Positions 9,864-24,950 of a stretch of 64,000 bases of DNA are shown in pieces (position 1 is the first letter of the stretch; each line of letters opens with the position of its first letter). Made by a program: the position numbers and the translations under genes. The stretch comes from Marihabitans asiaticum (GTDB taxonomy: Bacteria; Actinomycetota; Actinomycetes; Actinomycetales; Dermatophilaceae): contig NZ_VIUW01000002.1 of assembly GCF_007828725.1 (NCBI RefSeq), forward strand, positions 496,001 through 560,000. The letters run 5' to 3'. The notes beneath the pieces were generated by a model, which had not been told where the DNA came from, made no database searches, and saw only the letters and a program-made list of their open reading frames with translations.

Positions 9864-9868
9864 GGTGA
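9864..9868. repeat. Target-site duplication, left copy (GGTGA)
   Basis: GGTGA directly abuts the left terminal inverted repeat; the identical GGTGA abuts the right one at 24876-24880. Confidence 0.85.
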
Positions 9869-9885
9869 GGGGTGTTGCCCGAAAT
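9869..9885 (+). repeat. Left terminal inverted repeat
   Basis: GGGGTGTTGCCCGAAAT; 16 of 17 bases, including the first 15, match the inverted right end at 24859-24875. A second copy of the internal part is not obvious nearby on this side, unlike the right end. Confidence 0.88.
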
Positions 9886-10528
9886 GGTCTCGCCCCGCTA
9901 TTTCGTGGGCTTCACTCTCGCTTCCTGCGGGGTCTTCACACAGCGGAACGAACTTCTTCACATGGCCGCCCCGCCATCCTTTCCGTTATGTGCTGGGGTA
10001 AGAGCATGCCCAGTCCGAACTCCGACATCCCCCGGCTCCATCCGACAGGGATCGGCGTCATCGCGAGTCGCGTAGGCACATCGCCCCATCTTGTCGACTT
10101 GACCGCGCGGACCAATCGATAGCTTTGCGGAGTCGGGCTCGACTTCACAGCCTCCTGCGCGTGGTTCGGCATGGTGGGTTGCAAGAAGTGCGCACGGCTT
10201 GGGCTTCGAGGAGGTCTGACGGAGATCTGCGACATTGACGGTGAGATGGTGCAATGCACGACGTAGTGGAGCGCGACTGACCCCCTCGCTCCACTATTCG
10301 CCAGGACCCCAGCCAGCCTCCAAAGTCAAGTGTTGAGCACTTCGTCTGGGCGCAGCGTAGGCGCGCCCGGACGAAGGGTGCGGTGACGCCTGGGCGTCGC
10401 GCATGATCGATTGTGGCCGCTGGATCCTCAACGAGAGAGTCTGACCAGCTGGGCCACCTCGTCCTCATCAACGGGGCCTTGACCGGTCTCCAGGTACGCC
10501 AGAACGGCGACTCGGTGGGATGCCGGGA
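9886..10528. other. Non-coding left-end region of the element
   Basis: About 640 bp without a convincing gene. Open frames on both strands have no recognisable protein character, poor codon bias and no ribosome-binding sites. A 32-codon Cys-containing frame at 10171-10266 is not supported by anything else. The region probably contains transposase-binding sites or decayed sequence; no clear repeats of the terminal motif were found. Confidence 0.5.
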
Positions 10529-10534
10529 TAGCGT
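10529..10534 (+). promoter_or_regulatory. Putative leaderless -10 box for the HhH-like gene
   Basis: TAGCGT, six bases (CCCGTC), then ATG at 10541. The same TAGCGT-N6-ATG layout precedes pgm at 63272. Confidence 0.45.
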
Positions 10535-10540
10535 CCCGTC

Positions 10541-11200
10541 ATGGACGACCTTCAATCTCTCCAAGCAGCCATCTCGACCAACCTCGGGGATCCCTCCGAA
10601 TGGGACGCGCCAGTGGAGTTTCCAGACTCCCTCGCCCTGTGCGCCCTGAACTCCGTCTACTCATTGCGCTCGCACTCCACCGCCGGGCAGAGGGTGCTCG
10701 CACGGTACCGAGCGTGCCGTTCGAGCGCTGACACGGACACCGGTCCCGACCTCATCGCCGCGATGGACGGCGTAGGCGGGCCTGAGGCCTTCGCCCGCGA
10801 TGTCCTACAGAACGACAGCAAACTTCCGGGCACCAACCGCCTGCGCACCATCGGCATCCACGAGGCCCTCACTCGCCTCGCCGCACCAGAGATTGGTGTA
10901 ACAACGACAGCGCAGCTACGCGCGGCCGCAGATGACAAGCGTGCAGAGAAGGCATGGCGCTCCGTCAGCGGCTTGGGGCCCTTGTCTTGGTCCTTCTTCT
11001 TGATGAACGCCGGCATTAACCACCAGAGCAAGCCAGATGTAATGGTCCAGCGCTACATCAGCCGGGCCATCGACTCGCGGCGCACCCTCACCGCCGACGA
11101 GGCCAGGCAGCTCATCGAGTCCGCCGCTGCCGACCTCCAAGTCACACCCAGAGCACTCGATCGGGCCATCTGGATGCACGAGAGCCCGACGAGCAACTAG
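10541..11200 (+). CDS. HhH-GPD glycosylase-like protein, cargo gene
   Basis: A 219-residue protein of unknown function. The segment at about 142-178 (SGLGPLSWSFFLMNAGI, then KPDVMVQRYISRAI) resembles the helix-hairpin-helix and following loop of base-excision glycosylases (GxGPxTA...KPDxHV), including an Asp in KPDVM at the place of the catalytic Asp. The N-terminal 130 residues are helical and not recognised. A role in recognising damaged or modified bases would fit the restriction genes around it, but this is inference. It is transcribed towards and converges on the EVE/DUF3883 gene. Less GC-rich codons than chromosomal neighbours support its being part of the transposon. Confidence 0.65.
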   Translation: MDDLQSLQAAISTNLGDPSEWDAPVEFPDSLALCALNSVYSLRSHSTAGQRVLARYRACRSSADTDTGPDLIAAMDGVGGPEAFARDVLQNDSKLPGTNRLRTIGIHEALTRLAAPEIGVTTTAQLRAAADDKRAEKAWRSVSGLGPLSWSFFLMNAGINHQSKPDVMVQRYISRAIDSRRTLTADEARQLIESAAADLQVTPRALDRAIWMHESPTSN

Positions 11201-11421
11201 CAGCAGCCGTCGGCAGCGCTGTCTGCGAGCGCACCGACGCAAGCAAGACCTCGTGTGGCTCTCGTACTCACGACGAACTCGTCTCCTCGCCCACCGTGAA
11301 CTCCTCCCCATCGATGGGAGGAACCCTCGGTGGTCCGGCAAGACGCGGTGGCCGCGCCCCACTGCTGCCGACAAACTCGGCTACACCGAGGTTCATCGTG
11401 CAGCAGTCGCCTCCTTGCGTA

Positions 11422-12729
11422 TCAGGTGTCAGTCGGAGGTCCCCACTTCGGCGAGTCAAAGTCGGCCCAGTCGGGGCCGAAGTCGTAGGCGATGGGACTG
11501 AGATCCCCGCGGTCGGGTTCGAAGGGCCCAACCCAAAACTCGCCGGAGGCAGGATCGACATCGCCGTTCTCGTCGAGACGCAGGTCGCGCAGGATCCCCA
11601 GGGTGCAACTTCCTCGGTTACGCCGCGCGTGGGCCACCTCTTTACGGGTCACGATGACTGTCTCCCCGCCGCCCATGGTCCCCTTTGCCTCCAAATAGAG
11701 GCGCGCACCGTTCTTGGTGGCGACCGCATCGTACGGTCCGGCGAACCTCACATCCTCGACTTCCCAGCCGTCGCTTTCGTAGTGCTGCGTCAGTCGATCT
11801 TGCGCTGCGTCCTCGATCTGCTTACGCAGACGCGCATCCATCGCGCGGCCCTGGCCGGCGGCCTTACCGGTCGGCGCTGGCGCCTTGCCCTTCTCGACCG
11901 CGTCTCCGATGTGCTCAGCCCACATAGCCGCCAGATCGTCGGCGATCTCGGGCCTGACAGACTGTCCACTCCCCTGCGGGCTCCAGTGCTGTTGCGGGAA
12001 CCGATCTTTCAGATCTGTGAGAGGGAGAATCGCATCCTCATCGAGGATCGCGTTCCACCAGACCTCCACGTAGTTCGCCAGGCCCGAGACATCGGGATCG
12101 AAGTGCTCGTCTTGGAACACCTCACTGGCGACGGTGCCCGACGCCACCAAGCCCCGTGCAACTGCGCCCTGCTGCAGTAGGTAAAACGCATCACCCGGCC
12201 CGATCCCGCGGGTCCGGGAGCCGACCGACCACCGATCGGCCACCTCCATGCCCTCGGCCAGCAGTGCTTGAGCCTCAGGCACGTCGGTCTCGTAGAAGTC
12301 GAAGCGTGCTGGGTTGTAGGTCAGGAGGAAGGTCTGACCGGATGTGCCACTGGAGAGCGCATAGCCCTCAAGTCCCGTGGTGTCGAAATAGGAAACCGGG
12401 TTGCGGTGTCCCTCCAAGGGCATTCCCACGAGCGCCTCGCTCACCGGATGGTCCGCAGGCAACACTCGGCCCTCGAGCACCTTGTAGTCACCCGAGACGG
12501 TGCGGAAGTCGTCGATCTCGGCCACGAGGCGCACGCTGCCGTCGTAGGACATCGTGGCGTACCGCTCTTGCCGAAGGCGGTCACCGTTGACGACCCAATG
12601 GCCTCGGTTGACCTCCCAGATCTCCTCCATAGGGGCGTCGTCGTCCCACCCGACCCATGTACGTCCCATGGAGTCGTCGTCATCCACCGGCACCCGGTCG
12701 CGGTCGACGAGCTTGAAGTTGATGGCCAT
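11422..12729 (-). CDS. EVE-like plus DUF3883 (NOV_C, PD-(D/E)xK) protein, probable modification-dependent nuclease
   Basis: A 435-residue protein. Residues about 165-275 (RTRGIGPGDAFYLLQQ, GLVASGTV, FPQQHWSPQGSGQSV, LAAMWAEH) match the EVE/PUA-like reader domain found in type IV restriction proteins, which bind modified cytosine. Residues about 297-385 match DUF3883, the NO-VEIN C-terminal domain, with a nuclease-like core: Asp334 in PYDAV and Glu347/Lys349 in LYLEAKG, the D...ExK of the PD-(D/E)xK fold. The first 150 residues are beta-rich and unassigned. It probably recognises and cuts modified DNA, or helps the adjacent methyltransferase-helicase pair. A strong ribosome-binding site (AGGAGG) precedes the ATG. 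It lies 219 bp downstream of the methyltransferase on the same strand. Confidence 0.8.
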   Translation of the reverse strand: MAINFKLVDRDRVPVDDDDSMGRTWVGWDDDAPMEEIWEVNRGHWVVNGDRLRQERYATMSYDGSVRLVAEIDDFRTVSGDYKVLEGRVLPADHPVSEALVGMPLEGHRNPVSYFDTTGLEGYALSSGTSGQTFLLTYNPARFDFYETDVPEAQALLAEGMEVADRWSVGSRTRGIGPGDAFYLLQQGAVARGLVASGTVASEVFQDEHFDPDVSGLANYVEVWWNAILDEDAILPLTDLKDRFPQQHWSPQGSGQSVRPEIADDLAAMWAEHIGDAVEKGKAPAPTGKAAGQGRAMDARLRKQIEDAAQDRLTQHYESDGWEVEDVRFAGPYDAVATKNGARLYLEAKGTMGGGETVIVTRKEVAHARRNRGSCTLGILRDLRLDENGDVDPASGEFWVGPFEPDRGDLSPIAYDFGPDWADFDSPKWGPPTDT

Positions 12730-12948
12730 AGCTCCTCCTGGTCCAGACGTTCCTTGTCAGCCGCAAAGGTCTACCGTTGTTTGCGCACTGGCGGGCACCC
12801 TCGTCGTGACTACGTATGCGCGTTTACCGCTATAGGTCCTACACCTTTCAATTCAACTGTCGTGCAGCCATCGCGAGCTCGACAACCATGACCTCGGCCC
12901 ACCGCCCACGAGTCGGGCGCGGCCTGACCAGATTGGCAAGGTCGAAAC

Positions 12949-15717
12949 TCATCGTCGTTGCTGGGACATGAGTGGTGCAGTCAACTCTTCATAGGCCGCG
13001 AAGAGCGCTTCTTGTCGATGCAGAAGGGTTGGATTGGTCCTATCGAGCCCGAATGCTCGGTCGACAAGGTGATTGAGCCCGAGGTGGGCCTCCGCGACAC
13101 TCGTCTTCATCGCGCCGGGCCTGTAGTGGTCCTCGAGGGTCAGTTCCGGGTGCTCAGCGCGTGCGGCGAGAACTTCTCGTCCGGCTTCCTCGATGTCTGC
13201 TCGACTCTTGGCGTCGATAGGTCGCAGAGGGAAGTTGTTCCAAGTGATCGTGCTGGAGAAGCGTAGGTCAGACTTCATCCGCCCGCCGATAGTTTTCATC
13301 CAAGTCATGAACATGCTGGACGAAGCGATGGCGAAGGCGAAGCCGGTCGGGTCAACCGCCCCGTACACCGTGTTGGAAATAATCGTCTCCCCTGCCAGCT
13401 TGCCGACCGGAAGGTAGTCGCGGTTCTCGCTCGAGACCTCGGGAATGCACACGATCGGCTCGTCCGCGGTTATGCCGAACTGGCGGAACAGGTGATGGTG
13501 TGGGTAGTCGCGCGTGCTGGCCGCCTTGCTGTCGAGACGCATCTTGCGTACCTCTGCAACCCGCTGCCGTAGTTCGGGGCTGGTGCGGATCTCTTCCTGT
13601 GTGGCGTCGACGAGCCAGAGGCACCACCGCCTTCGCCCGTTGATCAGCTCCTTGGAGCCAACGTAGGAGCGCAGGTATCGACGCGCGACCGGATCCTGGG
13701 CGACGCTGTCGTACTCGTCAGGTGTGACGATGAAGTTGCCACCGTCGGTTGCCATCGACCCCTTGACCACTTCGGGCATTCCGGGGGACAGCGGTGTGCT
13801 CCTCTTGCCGACCAAGACGTTGGAACCGTCGACGAGGTAGGCGTTGATGACGCTGACGGCACGTTCAGTAGGAGCACCCTTCCAGTGGGCGTACTCGAAC
13901 AAGCGCGGTTTAGAGGCGAGATTTCGAGCGAAGCCGACGATCACGCAGTGCACCGCCGCCCCTCCGGCTGCTTCGGAGGTCCAGGCGAAGGTGCGGTGGG
14001 CGGACTTGATCTTCCAGCCTGCGTCGAAGATCTCTGAGAAGAGCCTCTGGGCCTGGTCGCCTTGGGTGATGGAGTTGGTTGTCACGAATCCCCAGAGGCC
14101 GTCGTGGTGACGGAAGTACTGGAGTGCCCGCGCGTGCCAGCCGGTGACGTAGTCCATGCGGCTGAGGACCTTGCTTCCGCCCCAGGCTGCCTGCAGCTCA
14201 TCTAACTGTCGCTTGGTGCGGGTGTGGTCACCGAGGAATGGCGGGTTCCCGGCAACGACGGTGTCCTCACCCGGTGGGCAGACGTCGGCCCAGTTGGTGG
14301 TGAGGGCGTTACCGACGACAATGGTGGCCTGTTCCTGGATGGGAAGGCGATCGGGGGCATAACCGAGAGAAGCGGTGAGCTTGAGGTCACACTGACGGTC
14401 CACGAGGAACATAGCGGCCTCGGCAATGCGGGCTGGCCACTCGTCGATCTCGATGCCGTAGAAATGATCGAGCGTGACCTTTAGGCCGACGTTGGCCAAG
14501 AGCATGGGGTTGTCCCCCGTGATTTGCTGGAGGCGTTCCATGATCGCCAGTTCGAGGTCACGCAGCTCGCGGTAGGCGACGATGATGAAGTTGCCACACC
14601 CGCAGGCTGGGTCCATGTATCTGATGCGACCGAGCTTGTCGCGCAGCTTGCGGAGCCGGTCAGCTTCGTACTTGCCAAGGGTCTTGATGTGGTTGAACTC
14701 GGCGCGAAGCTCATCAAGGAAGAGCGGATCGAGGGTCTTGAGGATGTTCTCCTCGGAGGTGTAGTGCTCCCCGAGCTGGCGGCGAGTCTCGGGATCACGC
14801 ACGGACTGGAACATGGAGCCGAAGATGGCTGGGCTGATGGCGGCCCAATCGCGGTCGCATGCTTCGAGCACGACGGTGCGGAACTCCGCGGTCATGCTCG
14901 GAGGGAGGGCGATGGCTTCTTCGAAAATGCCGCCGTTGACGTAGGGGAAGTCGGCGAGAGGCTCAGATGTGGCAGCCCGGTCGGTGTCGCTGGTGTCGAG
15001 GTGGGCGAAGAGATCGGTGATCCGCTGCCCGATGTCTGAGCCGTCTTGGTTGGTGTGGTTGTAGATGTAGTCGCGGAAGAGGTTGGGCCGCCACATGTCG
15101 GTGTCGTCGCCGAACATCAGGAACAGCAATCTGGCGAGCGTGACCGAGATCTGATGATCCCGCTCCGCAGCGGACGTTCGGCCATCGGTGTAAGCGTCTG
15201 TCATGGCGGTATACATGCGGGCCATGAGCTTGGACGCGGCCTTGGTTTCGTTCTGCGCTTCGATGTCGAAGGCTTCGCGGACCTTGGCCACGACCTCGTT
15301 CACGTTGAGCCCGCGGTCGTGGGGGAGGCGGATGCCGTCGAGCTTGGCTGCGAAGGTGGGGTCGGCGCTGCCGGTGGTGTGCCGGTGGCGGCTCAGGCGG
15401 GTGGCGGTACTGTTTCCCGTGACGCGGCGTGCTGGCCAGCGCCACACCTGCGTCTCGTCGTCGTAGAAGATGACGATCCGGTCGGTGCTGTTCTGCGCCA
15501 GGAGCCGGTCGATCTCGGCCTCGAGCTTCGACTCGGGCTTCTCGTTGATCGCCCACACCCGTAGGCCCTTGTAGGACGAGACGTTGCTCGCGGTGACGGA
15601 GTCTCCGTCGTGGTCGTAGACCACGGGTGGGTGATCGGGTGCGGACCAGTGCAGGTCTTGCAGGAAGAGGCGCTGGTAGTCACGGGCCTCGGTGCGGGCG
15701 ACGAGCGGGTCGGTCAT
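12949..15717 (-). CDS. MmeI-like type II DNA (adenine) methyltransferase, possibly fused restriction-modification enzyme
   Basis: A 922-residue class I DNA methyltransferase. AdoMet motif I is MDPACGCGNF (368-377) and catalytic motif IV is NPPF (491-494), the adenine-N6 type. ACGCGNF, the GGEHYTSE-like RQLGEHYTSEENILK lead-in, FAWTSEAAGGAAVHCVIVGF and SKELINGRRRWCLWL are all typical of the MmeI/DNA-methyltransferase superfamily, where methylase and target-recognition domains share one chain. Residues 45-100 (GLRVWAINE, RIVIFYDDETQVWRW) form an alpha/beta segment I cannot assign; no clear D...ExK site is visible, so own nuclease activity is uncertain. The ATG overlaps the helicase stop as ATGA, so the two are co-translated and probably act together: the methylase marks self DNA, the helicase-PLD protein attacks the rest. 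Confidence 0.85.
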   Translation of the reverse strand: MTDPLVARTEARDYQRLFLQDLHWSAPDHPPVVYDHDGDSVTASNVSSYKGLRVWAINEKPESKLEAEIDRLLAQNSTDRIVIFYDDETQVWRWPARRVTGNSTATRLSRHRHTTGSADPTFAAKLDGIRLPHDRGLNVNEVVAKVREAFDIEAQNETKAASKLMARMYTAMTDAYTDGRTSAAERDHQISVTLARLLFLMFGDDTDMWRPNLFRDYIYNHTNQDGSDIGQRITDLFAHLDTSDTDRAATSEPLADFPYVNGGIFEEAIALPPSMTAEFRTVVLEACDRDWAAISPAIFGSMFQSVRDPETRRQLGEHYTSEENILKTLDPLFLDELRAEFNHIKTLGKYEADRLRKLRDKLGRIRYMDPACGCGNFIIVAYRELRDLELAIMERLQQITGDNPMLLANVGLKVTLDHFYGIEIDEWPARIAEAAMFLVDRQCDLKLTASLGYAPDRLPIQEQATIVVGNALTTNWADVCPPGEDTVVAGNPPFLGDHTRTKRQLDELQAAWGGSKVLSRMDYVTGWHARALQYFRHHDGLWGFVTTNSITQGDQAQRLFSEIFDAGWKIKSAHRTFAWTSEAAGGAAVHCVIVGFARNLASKPRLFEYAHWKGAPTERAVSVINAYLVDGSNVLVGKRSTPLSPGMPEVVKGSMATDGGNFIVTPDEYDSVAQDPVARRYLRSYVGSKELINGRRRWCLWLVDATQEEIRTSPELRQRVAEVRKMRLDSKAASTRDYPHHHLFRQFGITADEPIVCIPEVSSENRDYLPVGKLAGETIISNTVYGAVDPTGFAFAIASSSMFMTWMKTIGGRMKSDLRFSSTITWNNFPLRPIDAKSRADIEEAGREVLAARAEHPELTLEDHYRPGAMKTSVAEAHLGLNHLVDRAFGLDRTNPTLLHRQEALFAAYEELTAPLMSQQRR

Positions 15718-18700
15718 GCGTTCTGTACCCCCAGTGAGCAGACGATCTTGATGGTGTCGGAGTCTCGGGTGCCGATGACGAGGCGGTCTTCGCTGTGCAG
15801 CTGGGCGATGAGTGCTGCGAGGTCGTCGAGGCTGTATTTGTTGCGTCGCGCCTGCGTCAGGCGCACCGTCGCGTGGGCAGTGAGTGGCCGCTCGTGGAGG
15901 GCGTCGAGTCCGGGGCCGGCTGCATTGCCGAAGACGGTGCCACCGAGTCGTTGCCAGGTCCACTTTCGGATGCCTTTGAGGTTGCCGGCAGCCAAGGATT
16001 CGATGCGCAGGGGTCCGTGGACGAGTGCGGCTTCCCACTCGAAGTGGTCGTCGCGAATCGCCACGGTCGGGGTGGTCGGTTCGGCGCGGAAGAGGGCCAT
16101 CGCTTCGAGCGGGGTGAGGAGCTTGGTGCTGCCGTGCCCGTCGGGGGTGATGCTGGCGGTGGCGAATGCGTCGACCCCCGATTCGGTCGAGACGAAGCAA
16201 CTGACCGAGCCGCCTGGTTCGTTGAGGCGCCGGTCGCGGGTGGTGTGGACCATGTCCTGCATGCTCAGGACCTTCTTGGTGATGTCGGGATGCTTGTCCC
16301 GCGCTTGGGACCACACCAACCAAGCCTCGCTGACGGCGTCGACGTCGGCCTCGGCTTCCTCGTCATCGCCGACGCGACCCTTGTAGAGGTCGTCGAGGAT
16401 CCTGACTTCCTCGTCGCCGCCGAAGAAGCGCTCGTCCGAGCCAAAGGCTTGGGCTGCTGCACCCAGGCGGTGCTTGATCCGCTTGCGCAGGTTGATCTGC
16501 TCTTCGATCTTCTCGTGGGTGATCAAATAGACGTTAACCACGTCGGACTTCTGCCCGATGCGGTCGACGCGGCCGGCGCGCTGGATGATGCGGATGATCG
16601 CCCACGGCAAGTCGTAGTTGACGACGATGTGACTGTCCTGCAGGTTCTGCCCCTCGGAGAGAACATCGGTGGCCACGAGCACATCGATCGGGTCCTTCAC
16701 CGTAACCGGGGCGGTGGCGTCTTGCCCGGGGAGAAGGTTGGACTCTGGGGAGAAGCGACGGGCAATATCCGACGGATTCTCGCTGTCACCGGTGGCCAAC
16801 CCGACGTTGTTGATGCCCGCCGCGGTGAGGGCGGAGGCGACGTAGGACGCGGTGTCGCTGTACTCAGTGAACACCAGGACCTTCTGGCCCTTGTGGTCGT
16901 GAGCGAGCAGGTCGATGAGCGCGTTGATCTTGGAGTCGCGACTGGCGTCCCAGTTGCCGAACCGGTCGAGCATGTCGTTGATGGCCTCGTTGTCCTGCTC
17001 GAGTTCGGCCAGCAGCGTTGGCTTGAAGACACCGGAGTTGATCCAGCGGGTCTTGGCCGGTGCGGAATCGACCATGGCGTCATACCGGGTGGCGAGGCTT
17101 CCACCCGTGTCCGCGTTGGCCTCGACGTCCTCGTCGCTGACCATCACCTGCCGGTTGCTCAATGAACCGATAGGAATCGGTTTGCCGGCCTCGATGGCGT
17201 AGATGAACAGCTCGTTGCGGGCCCGTTGGCGCTGCAGGGACAGGACGAAGGAGTGCCCCGAGGAGCTGAGCCGCTTGAACAGGCCCATGCGCACAAAACC
17301 GCTGACATTGCCACGCCCTGAACGGATGTCTTCGAGGATCGTGCGGTCCTCGTCAGTCTTACGTGCTTTGGGGTCCTCGTAGTCCGCGAGCCGGTATCGG
17401 GGCAGCGCAAGATCACGAACAGCGTCGAGAGTGCTCTCGTCTTCCATCAGCCGGGCCGGGTCGTCCCTGCTGAAAGGGTGGCTGATCGGGGTGGCGACGC
17501 GGGTGGGGAAGTGGAACTTCGCGCCGTTGGCGAACTGCAGGTACTCCCGTTCCACGGGCGAGCCGTCCGGGCCGCGCACCGTTTCGGTGCGGGCGGTGCG
17601 CTTGATGAAGGAGCGGGTGCGGCGGATGAGGTGATCACTCATCAGCCGTCGCCAGTCCTCGGGCTCCTCCGACAGGCGGAAGGCAGCCAAGGTGTCGATC
17701 TTGCCATCGACCTTGGACCGCAGGTTCGGGTCCTTGGCCAAGGCCGCGCTGGGTGTGAAGCCCAGGTCGTCGTCCTCGTCGATGTACAGGGCGAGCTGGT
17801 TGGCCACGTCGGTGAAGGCCAAGTTGTACGGGGTCGCGGTCAACAACAGCACCTTGGAGTTGTTGGCGCGGATGTAGTCGTGGATGGCCTCGTAGGCGAC
17901 GGTGCTGTTGTTGCGCAGGTTGTGCGACTCGTCGCAGATGACGAGGTTGAACCTCTTCAGTTCCGGCAGCACCTTCTCAGCCATGGAGTAGGGCACCACG
18001 CGGCCGGTGATGTCGTACTTCTCGAGGTGCTCGTTCCACATCTTCTCGAGGTTCTTGGGGCAGAGCACGAGGGTGGAGTAGTCCTCGGCGGCCTGCAGCA
18101 TCAGCGCGGTTGCGACGGCGGTCAGTGTTTTGCCCAGGCCGACGACATCGCCGAGCATGGTGCCCCCACGGCGCACGATGCGTCGGGAGAGGGTGCGCAC
18201 TGCGTTCTCCTGGTAGTCGAGCAGCAGGGTGCTCATCGACTTCGGAAGGACATAGCCCATGCCATCCCGGGCGTCTTGGCTCAAGGCGTGGCAAACCTTC
18301 AGGTAGACCTCGAAGGGGGTGGGCTGGTCCTGCTCGGCCCACGAGTTGGCGATCAGCTCGATGATCTCTTCGGAGATGGGCAGCGAGAAGGGGTCCTCCC
18401 ACTGCTCGTCGAACCAAGTGGCCAGCTTCGCGGTTGCGTCGGAGTCCTGAACGTCGATGTTCAACTCGAGGTTGTTGTGCAGGCCGGCGCCGGTCAGGTT
18501 GGAGGACCCGACGTAGCCCCACTTGCTCGCGAACGGATCATCCGGTGCGTGGAAGATGTACGTCTTTCCGTGAAGAGGTCGCTGGGTGAACACCTTCATC
18601 TGGACCCGGCCCGTCTGGAGCTGGCCCTTGAGCGTCTGGAGGGTCTGCTGACCCTTGACGGTAGCCAAGCCGCGCATCAACTGATTGCGCAGGTGCTTGA

Positions 18701-19016
18701 CGAGCTGGTCGCGCCGCTCTCGGGCCCTGTCCATGTCGACGATGTCCGCGCCGTAGGCAGGCGGCTGCACCTCCTCCTTGAGGGAGTCCAGCAGCTGCTG
18801 TGAATCCGCCGGGGCAACCATCCCCACCAGCACCCGCGCCACCGGAGGATCGCCTTCCACGAACGCCTTGGCCTCGACCACGTCCGCGAACGAGTCCCAA
18901 CCCCTCAGGTCCAGGTATCCGGTCGCCGCGTCGACCGTCTCGAAGTGCTCAAGCGAGGTGCGCAGAGCCGGACCAAGCATGGTTGCGTGGTTCAGGTTGT
19001 CGTAGATGTGGGGCAC
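15714..19016 (-). CDS. Phospholipase-D-like nuclease fused to SNF2-family helicase
   Basis: A 1100-residue two-part protein. An N-terminal PLD domain shows one HxK...GSxN set: HGK at 149-151 and GSSNLT at 170-175; one such motif implies dimerisation to form an active site. From about 265 there is a SNF2/superfamily 2 helicase core: GDVVGLGKT (289-297), DESH (362-365), TATP (393-396), ATDVLSEGQNLQ (782-793) and QRAGRVDRIGQ (812-822). The last 200 residues are unassigned. Comparable PLD and SNF2 proteins occur in DISARM and other restriction-like systems. The GTG start immediately follows the stop of a 69-codon gene with no gap. The product probably translocates on unmodified DNA and cleaves it. 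Confidence 0.88.
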   Translation of the reverse strand: MPHIYDNLNHATMLGPALRTSLEHFETVDAATGYLDLRGWDSFADVVEAKAFVEGDPPVARVLVGMVAPADSQQLLDSLKEEVQPPAYGADIVDMDRARERRDQLVKHLRNQLMRGLATVKGQQTLQTLKGQLQTGRVQMKVFTQRPLHGKTYIFHAPDDPFASKWGYVGSSNLTGAGLHNNLELNIDVQDSDATAKLATWFDEQWEDPFSLPISEEIIELIANSWAEQDQPTPFEVYLKVCHALSQDARDGMGYVLPKSMSTLLLDYQENAVRTLSRRIVRRGGTMLGDVVGLGKTLTAVATALMLQAAEDYSTLVLCPKNLEKMWNEHLEKYDITGRVVPYSMAEKVLPELKRFNLVICDESHNLRNNSTVAYEAIHDYIRANNSKVLLLTATPYNLAFTDVANQLALYIDEDDDLGFTPSAALAKDPNLRSKVDGKIDTLAAFRLSEEPEDWRRLMSDHLIRRTRSFIKRTARTETVRGPDGSPVEREYLQFANGAKFHFPTRVATPISHPFSRDDPARLMEDESTLDAVRDLALPRYRLADYEDPKARKTDEDRTILEDIRSGRGNVSGFVRMGLFKRLSSSGHSFVLSLQRQRARNELFIYAIEAGKPIPIGSLSNRQVMVSDEDVEANADTGGSLATRYDAMVDSAPAKTRWINSGVFKPTLLAELEQDNEAINDMLDRFGNWDASRDSKINALIDLLAHDHKGQKVLVFTEYSDTASYVASALTAAGINNVGLATGDSENPSDIARRFSPESNLLPGQDATAPVTVKDPIDVLVATDVLSEGQNLQDSHIVVNYDLPWAIIRIIQRAGRVDRIGQKSDVVNVYLITHEKIEEQINLRKRIKHRLGAAAQAFGSDERFFGGDEEVRILDDLYKGRVGDDEEAEADVDAVSEAWLVWSQARDKHPDITKKVLSMQDMVHTTRDRRLNEPGGSVSCFVSTESGVDAFATASITPDGHGSTKLLTPLEAMALFRAEPTTPTVAIRDDHFEWEAALVHGPLRIESLAAGNLKGIRKWTWQRLGGTVFGNAAGPGLDALHERPLTAHATVRLTQARRNKYSLDDLAALIAQLHSEDRLVIGTRDSDTIKIVCSLGVQNA

Positions 19017-19226
19017 TCAAGGTCCTTCTGAGTTGCAGGTGCAGGGGTCAAGCAGGGCGGAGAAAGGAATGGGTCTTGGGCGATGAGCTTCGGGGATAGC
19101 GCCCTGGGCCACGACAGCGATGTGACGCTCGAGCCACGGCAGATAGTCGATCTCGCCTTGGAGAGCTAGCCGCTCAGGCGGCTGTTCTTCGCGGTCAAGT
19201 CGCTTACGCGTCTGTGCGACCGACAT
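19017..19226 (-). CDS. Small protein coupled to the PLD-SNF2 gene
   Basis: A 69-residue frame with a good ribosome-binding site (GGAAGGTGG, about six bases before ATG) whose TGA touches the GTG of the helicase gene. This arrangement strongly suggests translational coupling, so it is likely real although too short to recognise. The sequence is charged at the N-terminus (TRKRLDREE), has a short helical middle (IDYLPWLERHIAVVAQGAI) and ends with a CTC motif. It could be an accessory subunit, a regulator, or simply a leader that sets helicase translation. Confidence 0.5.
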   Translation of the reverse strand: MSVAQTRKRLDREEQPPERLALQGEIDYLPWLERHIAVVAQGAIPEAHRPRPIPFSALLDPCTCNSEGP

Positions 19227-19322
19227 GCTCGTCCACCTTCCCCACGCAGCGATGCAACTCGGCGGCAGCCTACTGGCGGACCCACTGTTCGGCAGTCGTC
19301 AGCCGCGCTTCGTAGTACGACT

Positions 19323-19397
19323 GTCACCACCGTCGGGACGCGATGGCGGCCATGGCACCACCACAGGCCATGGCCGCCATCCGTCCCGACGGGTGAC
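19323..19397. promoter_or_regulatory. Long imperfect inverted repeat between the restriction operon and a divergent small gene
   Basis: Arms 19323-19356 and 19367-19397 pair over about 30 bp around a 10-base loop, interrupted by a 2-base and a 1-base bulge (core CGTCGGGACG and GATGGCGGCCATGGC). It lies about 100 bp upstream of the 69-codon gene and 240 bp from the divergent gene at 19635. It could be an operator, an attenuator hairpin in the leader of the restriction operon, or a structural DNA site. The rest of 19227-19634 shows no gene. Confidence 0.6.
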
Positions 19398-19634
19398 GTG
19401 AGAAACCACTGTGGAGTTGACAAGAAGCACCGGCTTCGCGAGCCGCACCCGATAGATGTGTCCGGCGCACGTCCACTTGCGCAATCACCCCGGGGTGAGT
19501 CGCTCCGAGGTCCCGTCACCACCCATCAGTTCGGCGTAGCCCTTGTGGGCGACACCAGCGCCGCTACTGGTCTCTCGTGAGCGCGGCCGCGCTCCGCGTC
19601 ACCCCTCCAACCCGGTAGGGGACGCCAACCCGAA

Positions 19635-19955
19635 ATGGGGCAACAAATGAGCAAGAACCACAAGCCGGTGCAGTGGAGTCTTCGACGGTGGCTCCGCCGC
19701 CGCGAGACCCTCGCCCTGCGCTACCTCGACATGAGGGCGCACAACCAGATGGGTCTCCAACCCGTCCACCAGTCGCTGCGGCGGACCGAACTGAAGATCG
19801 GGTCGATGTGGCCCGACCTCTACGACGACTTCGTCGAGCGGTGGGCCGAGTTCGACAACGCCCACCGGCACCAGCCACGCGATTTCCGCGAGGGGTGCAT
19901 CTACTGCTTGCTGGACAAGGTTCGGCGGCAGTCGCCGTCGCTGAACGCTGCTTGA
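19635..19955 (+). CDS. Small cargo protein of unknown function
   Basis: A 106-residue protein (or 102 if translation starts at ATG 19647). The N-terminal third is very basic (SLRRWLRRRETLALRYLDMR), the remainder mixed, with a CxxC-like GCIYCLLDK near the end. No family recognised. It is followed by a bidirectional terminator and is divergent from the restriction operon, across the long inverted repeat. Basic character is compatible with DNA binding, for example a repressor of the neighbouring operon, but no helix-turn-helix is evident by eye. Confidence 0.5.
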   Translation: MGQQMSKNHKPVQWSLRRWLRRRETLALRYLDMRAHNQMGLQPVHQSLRRTELKIGSMWPDLYDDFVERWAEFDNAHRHQPRDFREGCIYCLLDKVRRQSPSLNAA

Positions 19956-20001
19956 GCTGACTCGAGCCCACGACACCAGTCGTGCGTTCACCAAGCACAC
20001 C

Positions 20002-20033
20002 AGAAGGGGCGGGCCGCACGGCCCGCCCCTTCT
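20002..20033. terminator. Bidirectional terminator between convergent cargo genes
   Basis: Arms 20002-20015 and 20020-20033 pair perfectly over 14 bp (AGAAGGGGCGGGCC) around GCAC, followed by pyrimidines on the plus strand. It lies between the stop of the small gene at 19955 and the stop of the HNH-like gene at 20049. Confidence 0.85.
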
Positions 20034-20048
20034 CTGCGCTCGTTCCAT

Positions 20049-20921
20049 TCACAACCCGGCCTCGGCGCCACCATCCTCTCCAATCATCCGGCGGTGAAGG
20101 GAGACCATGCGACGCCAGGCGAGGCGGTCTCGGAGGGAGCCATTGATCAGCGGCAAGTCGATTTCGGGCTGGTAGGTCCACAACGGGAACACGGCCCCTT
20201 CGCGCCAGGCGGCGGCGACCCAGACGTACCCGAGGTGGTAGCCGTAATCCAGTCCCGTGAATCGTCCATCGGTCTCGTAGGTCATGGACGGGAGAATGCC
20301 GACGAAGGAGGAAAGGCCATCCGCTGATCCCTCGTCGCGCATCACGGTGTGTTGGTATCCAGCCCGCCAGTTGCGCGCCAGACTGAACTTCACGCTGGGG
20401 CACTCGGGCGCGCCATCCAGAAACTCGATGAGATCCACTGGGACCGACAGGTCGTACGAATCGAGCAAGCAGCCCAGCTGCTTGCCGAAGTAGCGCGCCA
20501 GGTCGGCCGCCTCCTGCTCCCAACGGGCGCCGAAGAGGTCCTGCCATCGCAGCCGGCACCATCGCATCATTTCGTCCACGTTGGCGACCACGAAGTCCTC
20601 GAAGCGGTCATGGGCTCTGTCGAACGGTTGACTGCGCGCGTTGTTGCAGGAGGCACACAGGTTCACGGGCCAACGGACCTCCGAGCCCTTCTTCAAGCTA
20701 CGCAGTTCTCCCTCGTAGCGAGTGCTCTTCTTGAACACGTTGCGTGGATCACGACTTCCGTCGTCGTTGGTGGCTACTCGTTGCAGTGAGCGGGCCTTGA
20801 TTTTGTGCTCCGCCGTGGTTGCCGGCGCGCCACACCACCAGCATCTCGTCGAAGGCCTCGGACCGTCGCGCCGCGCCCACCTCGTCGGTCCGCTCTCCCT
20901 CGCAGTCACGCACCCGATCAT
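20049..20921 (-). CDS. HNH-like / zinc-finger protein, cargo gene
   Basis: About 290 residues. Near the N-terminus CWWCGAPATTAEHKIK and, 50 residues on, LCASCNNARSQPFDRAH make two CxxC knuckles around a histidine, the layout of HNH-type nuclease or related zinc folds (C..C...H...C..CN..R). The remaining 180 residues (RLRWQDLFGARW, LARYFGKQLGCLL) are not recognised. The start is uncertain: ATG 20921 is used, with GTG 20909 or GTG 21011 possible, and none has a clear ribosome-binding site. It may be a restriction component, but no activity can be assigned. It is divergent from the transposition module. Confidence 0.55.
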   Translation of the reverse strand: MIGCVTARESGPTRWARRDGPRPSTRCWWCGAPATTAEHKIKARSLQRVATNDDGSRDPRNVFKKSTRYEGELRSLKKGSEVRWPVNLCASCNNARSQPFDRAHDRFEDFVVANVDEMMRWCRLRWQDLFGARWEQEAADLARYFGKQLGCLLDSYDLSVPVDLIEFLDGAPECPSVKFSLARNWRAGYQHTVMRDEGSADGLSSFVGILPSMTYETDGRFTGLDYGYHLGYVWVAAAWREGAVFPLWTYQPEIDLPLINGSLRDRLAWRRMVSLHRRMIGEDGGAEAGL

Positions 20922-21038
20922 CGCTGACTGACCCGACAACCGTCGTGACGGGCGACCGTCTGCCCAGTCCCGGTTGCCAGTCACGTTCCCCCGACGAGGG
21001 GATTGACGCACCGGGAAGTGTCCGGACGGTACAGGTCC

Positions 21039-21785
21039 ATGACGACTACTACTTCACTCAATGTCCTGTCCGATGCCGACTTCGCCGCCCGCATGGCCAC
21101 CTACCGACCCAACGGTCTCGAGCCCGAGGTCTGGGATGAGTGGGCCGACGAGGTCGCTGACATCGTCCGTGCCGCTGAGCCCTCCAGCGCCCAAGACCTG
21201 ACCTACTTGCTGGGAGTTGTATGCGGGTACCTGCGGTGGTCCACGCCTGTCCACGGCACCAACGACTTCGCAGCCCAAGTCACCGAGGACCTGATCACTC
21301 AGTACCTCAAGCGGCTCGAGCGGGCCGGCACCGCGGTCGGCACTCTCGAGAACCGTCGCAGCCAGCTTCTGCGTGTCCACCGGGGCTTGGCAGGACTGCC
21401 GACGCGCAAGGCGATCATGCGCGGACGCTCCCCGTACACGGCGCCGTACTCGCCCAGCGGAGTCCATGCCCTACGCGCAATCTGCGCACCCTCGGAGGAG
21501 CTGCAGGTCCTCCTCCGCATCTTGGACGACCGCACGCTGACCACCTCCGAGGTGATGGACCGGCTCAAGGGAGTGGCGACAGACCGCCTGCGTGAGGATT
21601 TCGCCCGCGCCGGACTGAAGTGGAGCCGCGAGCGGTGGAGAGTCACCTGGGCTGCCGGTTTGGTGAACGACGAAGCGGACTTCGTCACTCTCGCCCTTCG
21701 GCACGGTTTCAGTCGCAATGACTGCGAGCGCTTCCTTGCCCATCACCCGGCTACGCCAGGCACGCCTCTGCAGCTGCGCGGCTGA
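21039..21785 (+). CDS. Transposition module protein 1: tyrosine-recombinase-like, catalytic residues absent
   Basis: A 248-residue protein. Residues about 75-120 (LITQYLKRLERAGTAVGTLENRRSQLLRVHRGLAG) look like the SAM-like core-binding domain of tyrosine recombinases. Residues 195-235 (SRERWRVTWAAGLVNDEADFVTLALRHGFSRNDCERFL) align by eye with the HxLRHT...LGHSS...Y region, but only the arginine and the T-W pattern remain; no nucleophilic Tyr follows and the box I arginine segment is missing. It shares the RxRxTW signature and the PYT segment with the next protein, so the two are probably related. A likely role is sequence-specific binding to the element ends. It is the first of three co-oriented genes. 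Confidence 0.65.
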   Translation: MTTTTSLNVLSDADFAARMATYRPNGLEPEVWDEWADEVADIVRAAEPSSAQDLTYLLGVVCGYLRWSTPVHGTNDFAAQVTEDLITQYLKRLERAGTAVGTLENRRSQLLRVHRGLAGLPTRKAIMRGRSPYTAPYSPSGVHALRAICAPSEELQVLLRILDDRTLTTSEVMDRLKGVATDRLREDFARAGLKWSRERWRVTWAAGLVNDEADFVTLALRHGFSRNDCERFLAHHPATPGTPLQLRG

Positions 21786-21798
21786 CCCACGGACATCG

Positions 21799-21833
21799 CA
21801 ATCCCCGCCAGAAATTTTTCCTGGCGGGGATTG
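21799..21833 (+). terminator. Hairpin between module genes 1 and 2 (attenuator or terminator)
   Basis: Perfect 13-bp arms 21799-21811 and 21821-21833 (CAATCCCCGCCAG) around an AT-rich 9-base loop, 13 bp after the first gene. It may limit read-through into the transposase, lowering its expression. Confidence 0.7.
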
Positions 21834-21906
21834 CCGTACCGCTTCCGGTGCGCACCGTTCCGGTTTGTCCCCACCACCGGGGACCGCCAACCAACCGGAG
21901 GCCAAC

Positions 21907-22926
21907 ATGTCGAATAACCAACTCGTCGCGCGTCGCAAGCGCACTCCCCGCACCCAGAGCGGGGCTGCTTCGCTGCGTGCCCGAGAGGAAGCACTCACCG
22001 CTGCACCCGAACCGCTGCCCGCGGAGTACCTGGAGTGGCTGCGCACGACGTACAAGTCCAAGAAGGTCACCGAAACCGAGCTGGCCCGCATGCGGCCGGC
22101 GATCGTCGAGGCGATGACGCACTGCCCCGGCCGGGGCATGCGCAGCATGGAGCTGCGCACCAGTCAGGTCGTCACCCTCCTGATGTGGGCCAAGCAGGTT
22201 CGCGGCCTGACCGACGTCGCGCAGATCTTCACCCGTGAGCACATCGAGGACTTCTGCAGCACGGCGTTGTCGACTGTCAGCGAGAAGACCCGCTCGGACT
22301 ACCGCGGCCGGCTGCGTCCGATCGCTGATTCCCTCCACCCCGAGACCGCGCCCGAGCCTGCGCCGGTGCTGCGCCGCAAGGACGTGCAGGGGCCGTACAC
22401 GCCCGACGAGATGAACGTCATCCGGCGGGCAATCCTGGTCCAGCCCACTGACGAGCTCGTGCGTCAGCTGTGCGTGTGCGTCGGACTCGGCGTCGGGGCG
22501 GGCATCAACTCCTCCGAGCTGAAAACCATCAGGACCAGCGACGTGCACCTCGAGGCTGACGGCGCCGTCCGTGTTGAGATCCGCGGCGACAAGGCTCGCA
22601 CCCTGTGGGTGCACCGCGACTGGGAGGACGTCGCCGCCCGCGGGGTGCAGGGACGCGCAGCCAACGCCCTCCTGCTCGGCGAGAACCCTAACCGCCGCAA
22701 CGTCACCAGCAACCTCTTTCAGCGCGCCCACCTCTACGGCGACGTCCCCGAACTGTCCCAGGACCGCCTGCGCGCAACATGGATCGTGGGCCACCTGAAC
22801 CGGGCCACGCCCTTCTCCGTGCTCTGCCACGCCGCGGGCCTGTCATCCACCCGCGCCCTTTTCGATCTGCTCGAGTTCGTCACCGTCGCCCCGGCCAAGG
22901 GTGCCCTGCGCGGGGAGGGACGATGA
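21907..22926 (+). CDS. Transposition module protein 2: tyrosine-recombinase fold with degenerate active site
   Basis: A 339-residue protein. Residues about 110-145 resemble a core-binding domain (IEDFCSTALSTVSEKTRSDYRGRLRPI), followed by a catalytic-like domain: GLGVGAGINSSELKTIRTSDV at 193-213 corresponds to TGLRxSELxxLxxxDI, with Asn201 in place of the box I arginine; Lys229 in RGDKARTLWV matches the beta-hairpin lysine; DRLRATW (286-292) matches HxLRHT with Arg289 kept and His lost; GLSSTRALF has Leu312 for the LGH histidine and Phe319 at the tyrosine. So it should not cleave DNA and is more likely a DNA-binding partner. ATG 21907 has GGAGG six bases upstream. Its stop overlaps the next gene as ATGA. 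Confidence 0.72.
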   Translation: MSNNQLVARRKRTPRTQSGAASLRAREEALTAAPEPLPAEYLEWLRTTYKSKKVTETELARMRPAIVEAMTHCPGRGMRSMELRTSQVVTLLMWAKQVRGLTDVAQIFTREHIEDFCSTALSTVSEKTRSDYRGRLRPIADSLHPETAPEPAPVLRRKDVQGPYTPDEMNVIRRAILVQPTDELVRQLCVCVGLGVGAGINSSELKTIRTSDVHLEADGAVRVEIRGDKARTLWVHRDWEDVAARGVQGRAANALLLGENPNRRNVTSNLFQRAHLYGDVPELSQDRLRATWIVGHLNRATPFSVLCHAAGLSSTRALFDLLEFVTVAPAKGALRGEGR

Positions 22927-24761
22927 CCAAGTCGACGAACCGCCGTCCTTCGCCATCGGAGGGCCAGACCATCCAAGCACTGCTCACGCACGTGGAGCGG
23001 CTCGAGTGGGTCCTCGACAACGCTCGAATCGCCGACCCCGAGGACCCCAACGCAGAGGTCGACGCGGTCGAGCTGCTGGGTCGCTTCGAGCGTGCCAGCA
23101 AACGCGGCTGCAAGAAGCAAGGAGTTACCGTCCGACTGTTCCTGCTCCTGCTGCTGCTCTGCTGCCGGTTCCACACCAAGAGCGTGACCATCACGGCCAT
23201 GCACGATCTGGCTGTGGGCAACCTTCCGCGTGACACGCAGTGGCGGCTGGGCATCCTCACCCGCAACCGCGCCGGAGAGACGCGCGTGATGACCGCCAAA
23301 CAGCTGAACACCATCGCCCAGAACATCCACAAGAACCTCGACCCGCAGTCCGCCGTCGATGCCGACGAAGCGGCATTCCGGCGCAGGAACCTTGCCGCGG
23401 TCCGGGACGCACTCGTGACAGCCACGCACGTCGTGCCCCGACAGGGGTCCTCTTTCGCCGTCGACGAGACAGGGGTCTGGAGCTGGACGAAGTCCAACCG
23501 CAACCCCACACACACCCCGGACGTCGTAATCCTCGACGAGGACGAGCACGAGGTGGCCGCCGAACTCGATACCGATGCCCGCCCGGCCACCGGCATCTCC
23601 ACCACGGAACGAAATGCACGTCAGGACGCCAAGATGTGCGCCTTCGCGGCCTGGGGCTCCAAGACCCACAAGACCGGCGGAGCATCCAGCTACTTCGGGT
23701 ATGCCCTGCACGCACTCATCCGTGTGCCGGACATGGTCAAGCGAGGCGGGGTCCACGCTTCCGACCCCTATCGCGAGCCGCTGCTGATCGAGCAGTTCGC
23801 CCTCACCCCCGCCAGCACCGACATTGTCGACGTCACTCTTGGCATGATCCGCACCGTCGTGAGTCGCGGCACGACCATCCAAGATCTCATCGGAGACCGT
23901 CACTACAGCTACAAGAAGTACGAGCGGTGGGCCCTGCCGCTGGCGCAACTGGGCATTCGCCAGGTCCTCGACATGCGCGCCAGCGACCACGGGCCCAAGG
24001 ACTACAAGGGCGCTGTAGTCATCGACGGCACCCCGCACTGCCCGATGGTCCCCCAGGCCCTCCGACGCATCGACCGGCCTGGTCTTGGCGCCACCCGCGA
24101 TGAGATCGAACGCTACGAGCACCAAATCGAGGAGCGACAGCATTACGCGATGGCACGCAAACAGACTGCCCAGCAAAACCGTGATGGCAAGACTCGGTGG
24201 CTGTGCCCCGCGGCGGCCGGCAAACTCGGCTGCGCCAAGGTCGACGCCAGCATCACGGTCGCCCACGGCAAGGGGAAGCCTGTCGTCCGTCCCAGTGACA
24301 AGGTCACCAGCAGTTCCGCCTTCTGTGGAAGCAAGCCCTCTGTGGTCCAGATCCCTGCTCACCCCGTCATGAAGTATCAGCAGGAGGAGTACTACGGGCT
24401 CGGGGTCTGGAACGTCAGTTGGAACCGCCGCACCTACGTCGAAGGCGTCTTCGGCAACCTGAAAAACCAGTCGACACGCACCATCAAGCGCGGCTTCACC
24501 CGCTTCATCGGCGAACCACTGATCACCCTCGCCCTGACCGCCCAGGCCGTCGACTACAACCTCAAGGAACTCGAGGACTGGTGCATCCGGGCACAGGCAC
24601 ACCTGCCCAACCACCAGCCCACGCAGGACTTCTTGAACCACCCGTTGCACACCGCGCACACCGAGCACGAGTTCGGCTTCATGATGCTCACCGCCGAGCA
24701 GCAGGCGGACGTCGATCACCGACACGGCGCGATCGACTCGCCGGCCAACAAAGCCGCCTGA
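22923..24761 (+). CDS. Transposition module protein 3: DDE-family transposase
   Basis: A 612-residue protein with the outline of an IS1182/DDE_Tnp_1-like transposase: Asp181 in SSFAVDETGVW, Asp325 in LIGDRHYSYKKY, and Glu507 in RRTYVEGVFGNLK, the latter followed by the typical GFTRFIGEPLITLALTAQAVDYNLKEL tail. Spacings of 144 and 182 residues are long and the chain is larger than usual. A Cys-containing insert (LCPAAAGKLGC, AFCGSK) at about 427-468 resembles the zinc segment of such enzymes. It overlaps the previous gene by 4 bp and ends 114 bp from the element's right end. It is the probable strand-transfer enzyme; 5-bp target duplications fit a DDE mechanism. Confidence 0.8.
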   Translation: MTKSTNRRPSPSEGQTIQALLTHVERLEWVLDNARIADPEDPNAEVDAVELLGRFERASKRGCKKQGVTVRLFLLLLLLCCRFHTKSVTITAMHDLAVGNLPRDTQWRLGILTRNRAGETRVMTAKQLNTIAQNIHKNLDPQSAVDADEAAFRRRNLAAVRDALVTATHVVPRQGSSFAVDETGVWSWTKSNRNPTHTPDVVILDEDEHEVAAELDTDARPATGISTTERNARQDAKMCAFAAWGSKTHKTGGASSYFGYALHALIRVPDMVKRGGVHASDPYREPLLIEQFALTPASTDIVDVTLGMIRTVVSRGTTIQDLIGDRHYSYKKYERWALPLAQLGIRQVLDMRASDHGPKDYKGAVVIDGTPHCPMVPQALRRIDRPGLGATRDEIERYEHQIEERQHYAMARKQTAQQNRDGKTRWLCPAAAGKLGCAKVDASITVAHGKGKPVVRPSDKVTSSSAFCGSKPSVVQIPAHPVMKYQQEEYYGLGVWNVSWNRRTYVEGVFGNLKNQSTRTIKRGFTRFIGEPLITLALTAQAVDYNLKELEDWCIRAQAHLPNHQPTQDFLNHPLHTAHTEHEFGFMMLTAEQQADVDHRHGAIDSPANKAA

Positions 24762-24783
24762 TCCATCAACACCATGAACAACA

Positions 24784-24820
24784 ACGAGGGCCGCACCCAC
24801 ACAGTGGGAGCGGCCCTCGT
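24784..24820 (+). terminator. Terminator after the transposase gene
   Basis: Arms 24784-24799 and 24805-24820 pair with one mismatch around CACAG, with a short T-run downstream (CGTTT), 22 bp after the transposase stop. Confidence 0.8.
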
Positions 24821-24835
24821 CGTTTACGGGTGCTG

Positions 24836-24875
24836 GAATTCGGGCAACACTTCTACCGAATTCGGGCAACACCCC
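24836..24875 (-). repeat. Right terminal inverted repeat with a second, 22-bp-spaced copy
   Basis: The motif GAATTCGGGCAACAC occurs at 24836-24850 and 24858-24872, exactly 22 bp (two helical turns) apart; the outer copy continues to the element end at 24875. Paired sites on one face of the helix suit cooperative binding of transposition proteins. Confidence 0.85.
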
Positions 24876-24880
24876 GGTGA
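24876..24880. repeat. Target-site duplication, right copy (GGTGA)
   Basis: Identical to 9864-9868. Its last base is the complement of the tRNA-Gly discriminator base, so insertion occurred exactly at the tRNA 3' end. Confidence 0.85.
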
Positions 24881-24950
24881 GCCGATGACGGGAATCGAAC
24901 CCGCGTGTCCAGCTTGGGAAGCTGGCGCTCTACCATTGAGCTACATCGGC
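24880..24950 (-). tRNA. tRNA-Gly (anticodon CCC)
   Basis: The minus strand folds as a full cloverleaf: acceptor GCCGATG with CATCGGC, D arm GCTC/GAGC, anticodon stem CCAGC/GCTGG with loop TTCCCAA (anticodon CCC), T arm with loop TTCGATT, and discriminator T. CCA is not encoded. The gene is intact despite the transposon lying immediately at its 3' end; the original trailer sequence is replaced by GGTGA complement plus the element end, so 3' processing may now depend on element sequence. Confidence 0.95.

Follow-up and report, generated by a model that had tools for sequence, protein, structure and literature searches.

Transfer RNA (tRNA) genes are common sites of genomic islands, which are usually attributed to active integrases: such islands insert at the 3' end of the tRNA and leave it intact, and the repeat that flanks them is a segment of the tRNA. 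Tn7-like and CRISPR-associated transposons (CAST) that target tRNA genes use the TnsB/TnsC/TniQ machinery and insert at a distance from the gene, and the relatives of IS1182 are single-gene insertion sequences. Here, we examine an element of approximately 15 kb (positions 9869–24875) in a 64-kb stretch of the genome of Marihabitans asiaticum, referred to as the window. The element was delimited by a sequence search for its terminal inverted repeats (TIRs) and flanking repeat, and includes three genes designated A, B and C. As in the integrase islands, the tRNA at the insertion site is intact, but the element is flanked by a 5-bp duplication and encodes a DDE enzyme. Like the Tn7-like and CAST elements it is a DDE transposon near a tRNA gene, but it is inserted directly at the discriminator base.

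The Tn7-like transposon Tn6022 uses an inactive tyrosine recombinase, TnsF, as its target selector; TnsF has zinc fingers, works with TnsA, TnsB, TnsC and TniQ, and targets comM (PMC10293859). Compared by description, Tn6022 resembles the family reported here in its target-site duplications (TSDs), its homing to a fixed site and its inactive tyrosine recombinase. However, the transposase here is related to that of IS1182, no TnsA, TnsB, TnsC or TniQ was found, and the targets are the 3' ends of the genes for tRNA and transfer-messenger RNA (tmRNA). Tsy, as set out in the same text, also has a target selector of the tyrosine-recombinase family and lies outside Tn7, but it requires catalytically active tyrosine recombinases and has no Tn7 components, whereas here a DDE enzyme is accompanied by degenerate recombinases (PMC10293859). 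A literature search, with most subscription papers and bioRxiv outside its coverage, returned no description of the transposon family, which is apparently unnamed so far. A further paper (PMC13313380) was set aside, as it concerns phages, one with an IS3-like element, and is unrelated to the family.

Our reading, to which we assign a probability of roughly 0.75, is that the element belongs to a family of DDE transposons, distinct from Tn7, that homes to the 3' ends of tRNA and tmRNA genes, and in which inactivated tyrosine recombinases are the likely target selectors. The homing is concluded from the distribution of copies and the positions of their ends. The role of B and A as site selectors is suggested by the loss of catalytic residues, the retention of B beside C, the lack of both a tRNA and B in control loci, and the precedent of TnsF. 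Defined inverted ends and a target duplication of fixed length, the hallmarks of DDE transposons, are found in the window and in relatives. The boundaries and the insertion site in the window are as follows.

9864–9868, no strand: left TSD, GGTGA (sequence and shifted-control test)
9869–9883, + strand: left TIR, GGGGTGTTGCCCGAA (exact match)
24784–24820, no strand: terminator-like hairpin with an 11-bp stem, between C and the right end (hairpin search)
24839–24853, − strand: inner copy of the end motif with 2 mismatches, 22 bp inside the right end (motif search)
24861–24875, − strand: right TIR (exact match, 15/15)
24876–24880, no strand: right GGTGA copy, comprising 4 bp and the tRNA discriminator base (sequence and shifted-control test)
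24880–24950 (start also given as 24879), − strand: tRNA-Gly(CCC), the target gene, intact (tRNA prediction)

These bounds, the inverted repeats (15/15) and the GGTGA on both sides had been proposed in an initial annotation of the window and proved correct to the base. Only two exact copies of GGGGTGTTGCCCGAA are present in the whole 2.95-Mb genome, both at the element ends. With the right end fixed, the observed left end scored highest (15/16) among those with an exact 5-bp repeat, and the best TIR obtained using 40 shifted right-end positions as a control was 10/16. The foreign-looking composition noted earlier is borne out by a GC content of 0.643 within the element and 0.711 outside it in the window. 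Absent from the initial annotation was the overlap of the right repeat with the last base of the tRNA-Gly(CCC) gene. This tRNA is found without an element at the syntenic place in two genomes of the same genus (G001 and G002). By eye, a terminator-like hairpin directly adjoins the tRNA-Gly 3' end in both, and in the window a hairpin of this kind is separated from the tRNA by the element. Neither is an exact empty site, as the last left-flank gene is absent from G001 and is separated from the tRNA by approximately 3.8 kb of other DNA in G002.

Relatives of C were sought in plasmid records and genomes, with the search kept to one phylum, which we infer to be Actinomycetota from the named matches (Janibacter, Streptomyces and Rhodococcus). 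They are mostly 16–25 % identical and usually have B alongside. Long stretches were taken from 24 of the 26 C-matching genomes (window included) and then from 19 of 20 and 13 of 15 new ones; G247, G364, G662, G949, G1093 and some second places are without one. A position rule, in which the duplicated 5 bp are the discriminator base and the next four bases, was drawn from six loci and then applied to 43. The TIR together with an exact repeat outscored all 40 shifted controls in six loci (the window, L059, L061, L062, L107 and L117), and in L071 and L118 a single control equalled it. Rank alone predicts approximately one and two loci at these two levels, respectively; L116 is a weaker fit (3 of 40 shifted controls). 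L107, L117, L118 and an element in Janibacter (see below) fit a rule that was formed without them, and L073 and L111 obey it with a one-base shift. When the repeat was relaxed, the left-end search gave mostly chance-like candidates and L111, with its CCTGC counted in the score, was the sole new acceptance. In all, both ends were recognised in ten copies besides the window, with the 5-bp duplication falling at the same point of the tRNA (shifted by one base in two of them). Because the repeat includes the discriminator and, where encoded, CCA, the tRNA is restored.

The ends share further features. A second motif lies 22–23 bp inside the right ends, with a mean of 6.0/13 matches at offset 23 over 41 ends (L115 and L121 omitted), the background being 3.26 and the largest value in 200 shuffles 4.2. 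CCTGC, which was not used in finding them, is present approximately 20 bp inside 6 of 10 left ends, the window's not among them. A hairpin with a perfect stem of at least 9 precedes the right end in 20 of the 43 loci, versus 4 of 129 shuffles.

The module in the window consists of three genes.

21039–21785, + strand: A, a shortened tyrosine-recombinase-like protein (match to the B profile, E 6.4e-8)
21907–22926, + strand: B, a tyrosine-recombinase-like protein of 339 aa with most catalytic residues gone, the candidate target selector (profile, model and alignment)
22923–24761, + strand: C, a DDE transposase of 612 aa distantly related to IS1182, with D181, D325 and E507 (alignment, profile and fold)

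The 3' end of B overlaps the start of C by 4 bases. Scans of the window A, B and C proteins against Pfam (E up to 0.1) and against NCBIfam and PADLOC (both E up to 0.01) gave no match; with the limit raised to E 1, two weak NCBIfam matches to kinases appeared for C. The relatives were more informative. D181, D325 and E507 (window C numbering) are invariant in all 23 aligned C proteins, 13 of which match the NCBIfam IS1182 model NF033551 (E up to 1, best 4e-13) and 10 DDE_Tnp_1_6 (E up to 1, best 2.1e-5). However, no C relative reaches the cut-off of the IS1182 family model (270 bits), the best E of 4e-13 falling far below it. The nearest fold to the structure model of C (pLDDT 72.4) is that of the Tn5 transposase (E 3e-3). 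The IS1182-like DDE enzyme of the initial annotation therefore stands as a distant kinship seen in relatives, and not as a match of the window protein itself, for which the Pfam and NCBIfam scans returned no transposase family. Nor is the layout that of IS1182, as B adjoins C in the window and in most complete relatives.

The two recombinase-like proteins annotated beside it are upheld by profile and model. The match of A covers the N-terminal portion of the B profile together with a short C-terminal stretch. The B profile matches a XerC-like recombinase (1.6e-14), the nearest structures to the model of B (pLDDT 87.7) are XerA, Cre and XerH, 10 of 30 B relatives match Phage_integrase (E up to 1, best 1.1e-7), and 10 of 23 B proteins match a PHROG integrase family. 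Catalytic positions were assigned via the profile alignment and what we take to be the XerD motifs. The second arginine is the only one of the six that is kept in all 23 B proteins; arginine I is present in 3, the lysine in 1, histidine II in 2, the His/Trp residue in none and the tyrosine in 8. These losses bear on an alternative in which tyrosine recombinases move the element as an integrative island at a tRNA attachment site and the DDE protein is merely carried along. A and B do belong to the tyrosine-recombinase superfamily, and tRNA 3' ends are classical tyrosine-integrase sites. However, no catalytically complete tyrosine recombinase was found among the 23 B proteins, C keeps its catalytic triad throughout, the ends are inverted repeats, and the flanking repeat is 5 bp and not a longer stretch of tRNA. 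We rejected this explanation as very improbable.

Least probable of the alternatives is that A and B resolve cointegrates of replicative, Tn3-like transposition. GGGG ends and 5-bp duplications recall Tn3, some members of which use tyrosine recombinases, but most B catalytic residues are lost and, as the initial annotation had stated, TnpA is missing (none among the eight scanned element proteins), so that the resemblance is superficial and membership of the Tn3 superfamily was rejected. A Tn7-like assignment was also rejected, since Pfam and NCBIfam scans of the eight element proteins and the C alignment revealed no TnsB-type rve transposase, TnsC or TniQ.

Some family members have two full B-like genes and others one, and B stays beside C even in very divergent members. 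As the number varies, B plus C is the likely minimal core of the module.

The tally of family copies comprises 67 C open reading frames (ORFs) that reach position 505 of the 565 in the profile, with three records named; it omits L105 (the same as L154), L017/L018 (the same as L073/L074) and L148 (too short), and L112, whose contig stops 246 bp past C, was set aside. In 54 of the 67, the 3' end of a tRNA or tmRNA gene faces C at 60–266 bp from the C 3' end, and the opposite orientation was never seen. The chance expectation, calculated by applying the host's 45 tRNAs and one tmRNA per 2.95 Mb to all genomes, is 0.16 of 67 (binomial 2e-129 if copies are independent). There are sixteen targets, namely Leu(CAG) with 16 copies, Ser(CGA) 6, Gly(CCC) 5, Leu(GAG) 4, Ala(CGC) 4, tmRNA 3, two copies each at Ala(TGC), Lys(TTT), Pro(TGG), Met(CAT), Ser(GGA) and Tyr(GTA), and one each at Ser(GCT), Val(CAC), Lys(CTT) and Leu(TAA). 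Among small loci beyond the tally, L038 and L047 face a tRNA and L052 does not. Ten control loci (nine elements; 2.8–4.3 kb each) above or near the IS1182 model cut-off included neither a tRNA (0/10) nor a B-like ORF (0/10) in those stretches.

Copies at the 3' end of tmRNA (ssrA) were observed in L060, L120, L141 and L145. They indicate that the feature read is probably the T-arm/acceptor that tRNA and tmRNA share. On a tree of 40 C proteins chosen for their known target (those of L140, by eye, and L145 were assigned by hand), target isotype requires 18 changes; with shuffled targets the mean was 22.7 and none of 200 was as low as 18, so targets are clustered. Clades tend to hold one target but often switch among tRNAs and tmRNA. 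Two close pairs have different targets (L068/L069 and L020/L072), with one B missing in each pair. In contig C121 of G558 (L154 and L106), three C genes lie in series, the last at tRNA-Ser(CGA). The CTGGC found at this tRNA can also be made out, by eye, just after the first right end. Repeated insertion thus appears to pile up elements at a single tRNA, and this row suggests how older copies become parted from the tRNA.

Under the reading we favour, B (plus A where present) would bind the T-arm/acceptor DNA of the tRNA gene, like active integrases at tRNA attachment sites, and would bring C with the paired ends to the 3' point of the tRNA. C would then cut the element ends and join them to both strands with a 5-bp stagger, the duplicated discriminator base and 4 bp would rebuild the RNA gene, and further insertions at one tRNA could stack elements.

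Several observations weigh against this reading. We infer that B and A read the tRNA, and C could do so instead. Thirteen of the 67 copies have no tRNA within 300 bp. Seven of these have a probable reason, partly by eye: the two upstream copies of the L154 three-copy row that ends at tRNA-Ser, L139 and L150 (fragments upstream of another tRNA-borne copy), L077 (directly followed by another left end), L140 (beside a 3' piece of tRNA-Met) and L145 (extra sequence ahead of tmRNA). For the remaining six, L015 and L022 (plasmids), L055, L123, L149 and L151, no such reason was found. Some copies are close relatives and hence not independent. Of 43 loci, 32 yielded no convincing left end, several of them having only a few kb upstream, and single TIR scores are not decisive because a shifted control reached 13/16 once (L122). 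The C profile matches no ORF in the ten control IS1182 loci (E up to 10) and the C structure model has no PDB match below E 0.001, indicating that the kinship with IS1182 is distant. Finally, 17 of the 54 copies facing a tRNA or tmRNA showed no neighbouring B in an adjacency test, though some of these are truncated or split and L060, L108 and L118 do carry B. The missing B genes, together with the single-gene nature of IS1182 relatives, favour the possibility that C itself picks the tRNA end, for example by a T-arm inverted repeat or a hairpin, and that A and B have a different role, for example in the regulation or assembly of the transposition complex. However, B is retained beside C in very divergent members and neither B nor a tRNA is found in the control loci, although the latter argument carries little weight, given the distant relationship of the controls to C. 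We consider selection by C unlikely.

The initial annotation had proposed looking for other insertions with these ends. Apart from the copies with related ends described above, there is a sister element of 16,482 bp in Janibacter indicus (NZ_FWXN01000002.1) with the same ends, also at tRNA-Gly(CCC), with the TSD GCTGA on both sides. Its A, B and C are 61, 73 and 65 % identical to those of the window (module DNA 71 %). The plasmid records, queried with the window proteins, yielded C in two, B in two and A in none, and the module genes in the two are annotated as hypothetical proteins. In pSCL3 of Streptomyces clavuligerus (NZ_CP086232.1, 251823–258364; L015, 6958–13499), a 6,542-bp copy has a TIR of 12/16 and the TSD GGTGG with no recognised tRNA at the site; it represents either a second target mode or an off-target insertion, and a search for its empty site found none. 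The Rhodococcus opacus plasmid locus L022 (18757–22384) has a three-gene module with two full B-like genes, and no tRNA was found there. The end search gave no convincing pair for L022 or L055. Phage records and IMG/VR yielded no close C relatives, one of these scans using two short peptide patterns only.

The restriction/defence cargo recognised in the initial annotation was confirmed in the window, which includes the following genes.

10541–11200, + strand: 219-aa cargo protein of no family, with a 32 % match in L057 (G139) (library scans, tblastn)
11422–12729, − strand: 435-aa cargo protein with a NOV_C domain (Pfam, E 1.6e-6); the Janibacter element has a 57 % identical protein
12949–15714, − strand: MmeI-like type IIG restriction enzyme-methyltransferase (library scans; the frame is open to 16323 and a start near 15714 is presumed)
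15714–19016, − strand: 1100-aa cargo protein with PLD nuclease-like and SNF2 helicase parts (library scans)
20049–21011, − strand: 320-aa protein of no family, with an HNH-like pattern by eye only (library scans, tblastn)

The 1100-aa protein has partial matches to the DISARM DrmD and HKD+Snf2 defence models, under the NCBIfam cut-offs. The 320-aa gene is divergent to A, and the Janibacter element has a 53 % identical copy next to its own A; in the other fetched loci, tblastn gave no match to it. Its product may be cargo or an accessory of the window/Janibacter subfamily. These two elements share the genes for the NOV_C and 320-aa proteins, and their large restriction genes differ.

Cargo, with ORFs called using a simple caller, was compared in eleven end-defined elements (window, Janibacter, L059, L061, L062, L071, L073, L107, L116, L117 and L118). 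End-defined elements of the family are 6.5–18 kb long with their cargo. Six of the eleven have a recognised or candidate defence-type gene: the type IIG enzyme and PLD-SNF2 helicase in the window, a type ISP enzyme with an Mrr domain in Janibacter, a type ISP enzyme and a ThsB-like TIR protein in L117, an IetA- and IetS-like pair in L059 (5520–9081), a candidate PDC-S28 in L071 and a DNA cytosine methyltransferase in L062. Hence, defence is common but not universal. Singly scanned proteins of L061, L073, L107, L116 and L118 had no PADLOC match, a few pooled-scan matches not being traced; L107 encodes another transposase and a protein that combines CBM96 and phospholipase A2 domains. Cargo mostly sits between the left end and the module. 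In L149, an ORF downstream of C resembles, by eye, a CBASS-type nucleotidyltransferase, so that the stretch from C to the right end may carry cargo as well.

The earlier view of a mobile vehicle for defence genes with an undescribed transposition apparatus is thus supported by the relatives, the ends and the literature search. More broadly, we lean towards the view that a transposon class apart from Tn7 has independently converted integrases that attack tRNA genes into inactive proteins that read the target for a DDE transposase. On this view, the class can be retargeted in evolution to at least 15 tRNA species and to tmRNA, with a precision close to one base, and in its phylum it serves generally as a carrier of defence islands at tRNA genes. 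This suggests a second route to tRNA islands, in which a DDE transposase with disarmed recombinases lands on the discriminator base and the tRNA survives. The family would account for defence islands in which the module genes bear only the annotation of hypothetical proteins, and it offers a natural series of candidate selectors with differing tRNA targets for the study of how protein-guided transposition is retargeted. B plus C may also provide a compact tool for insertion at safe sites.

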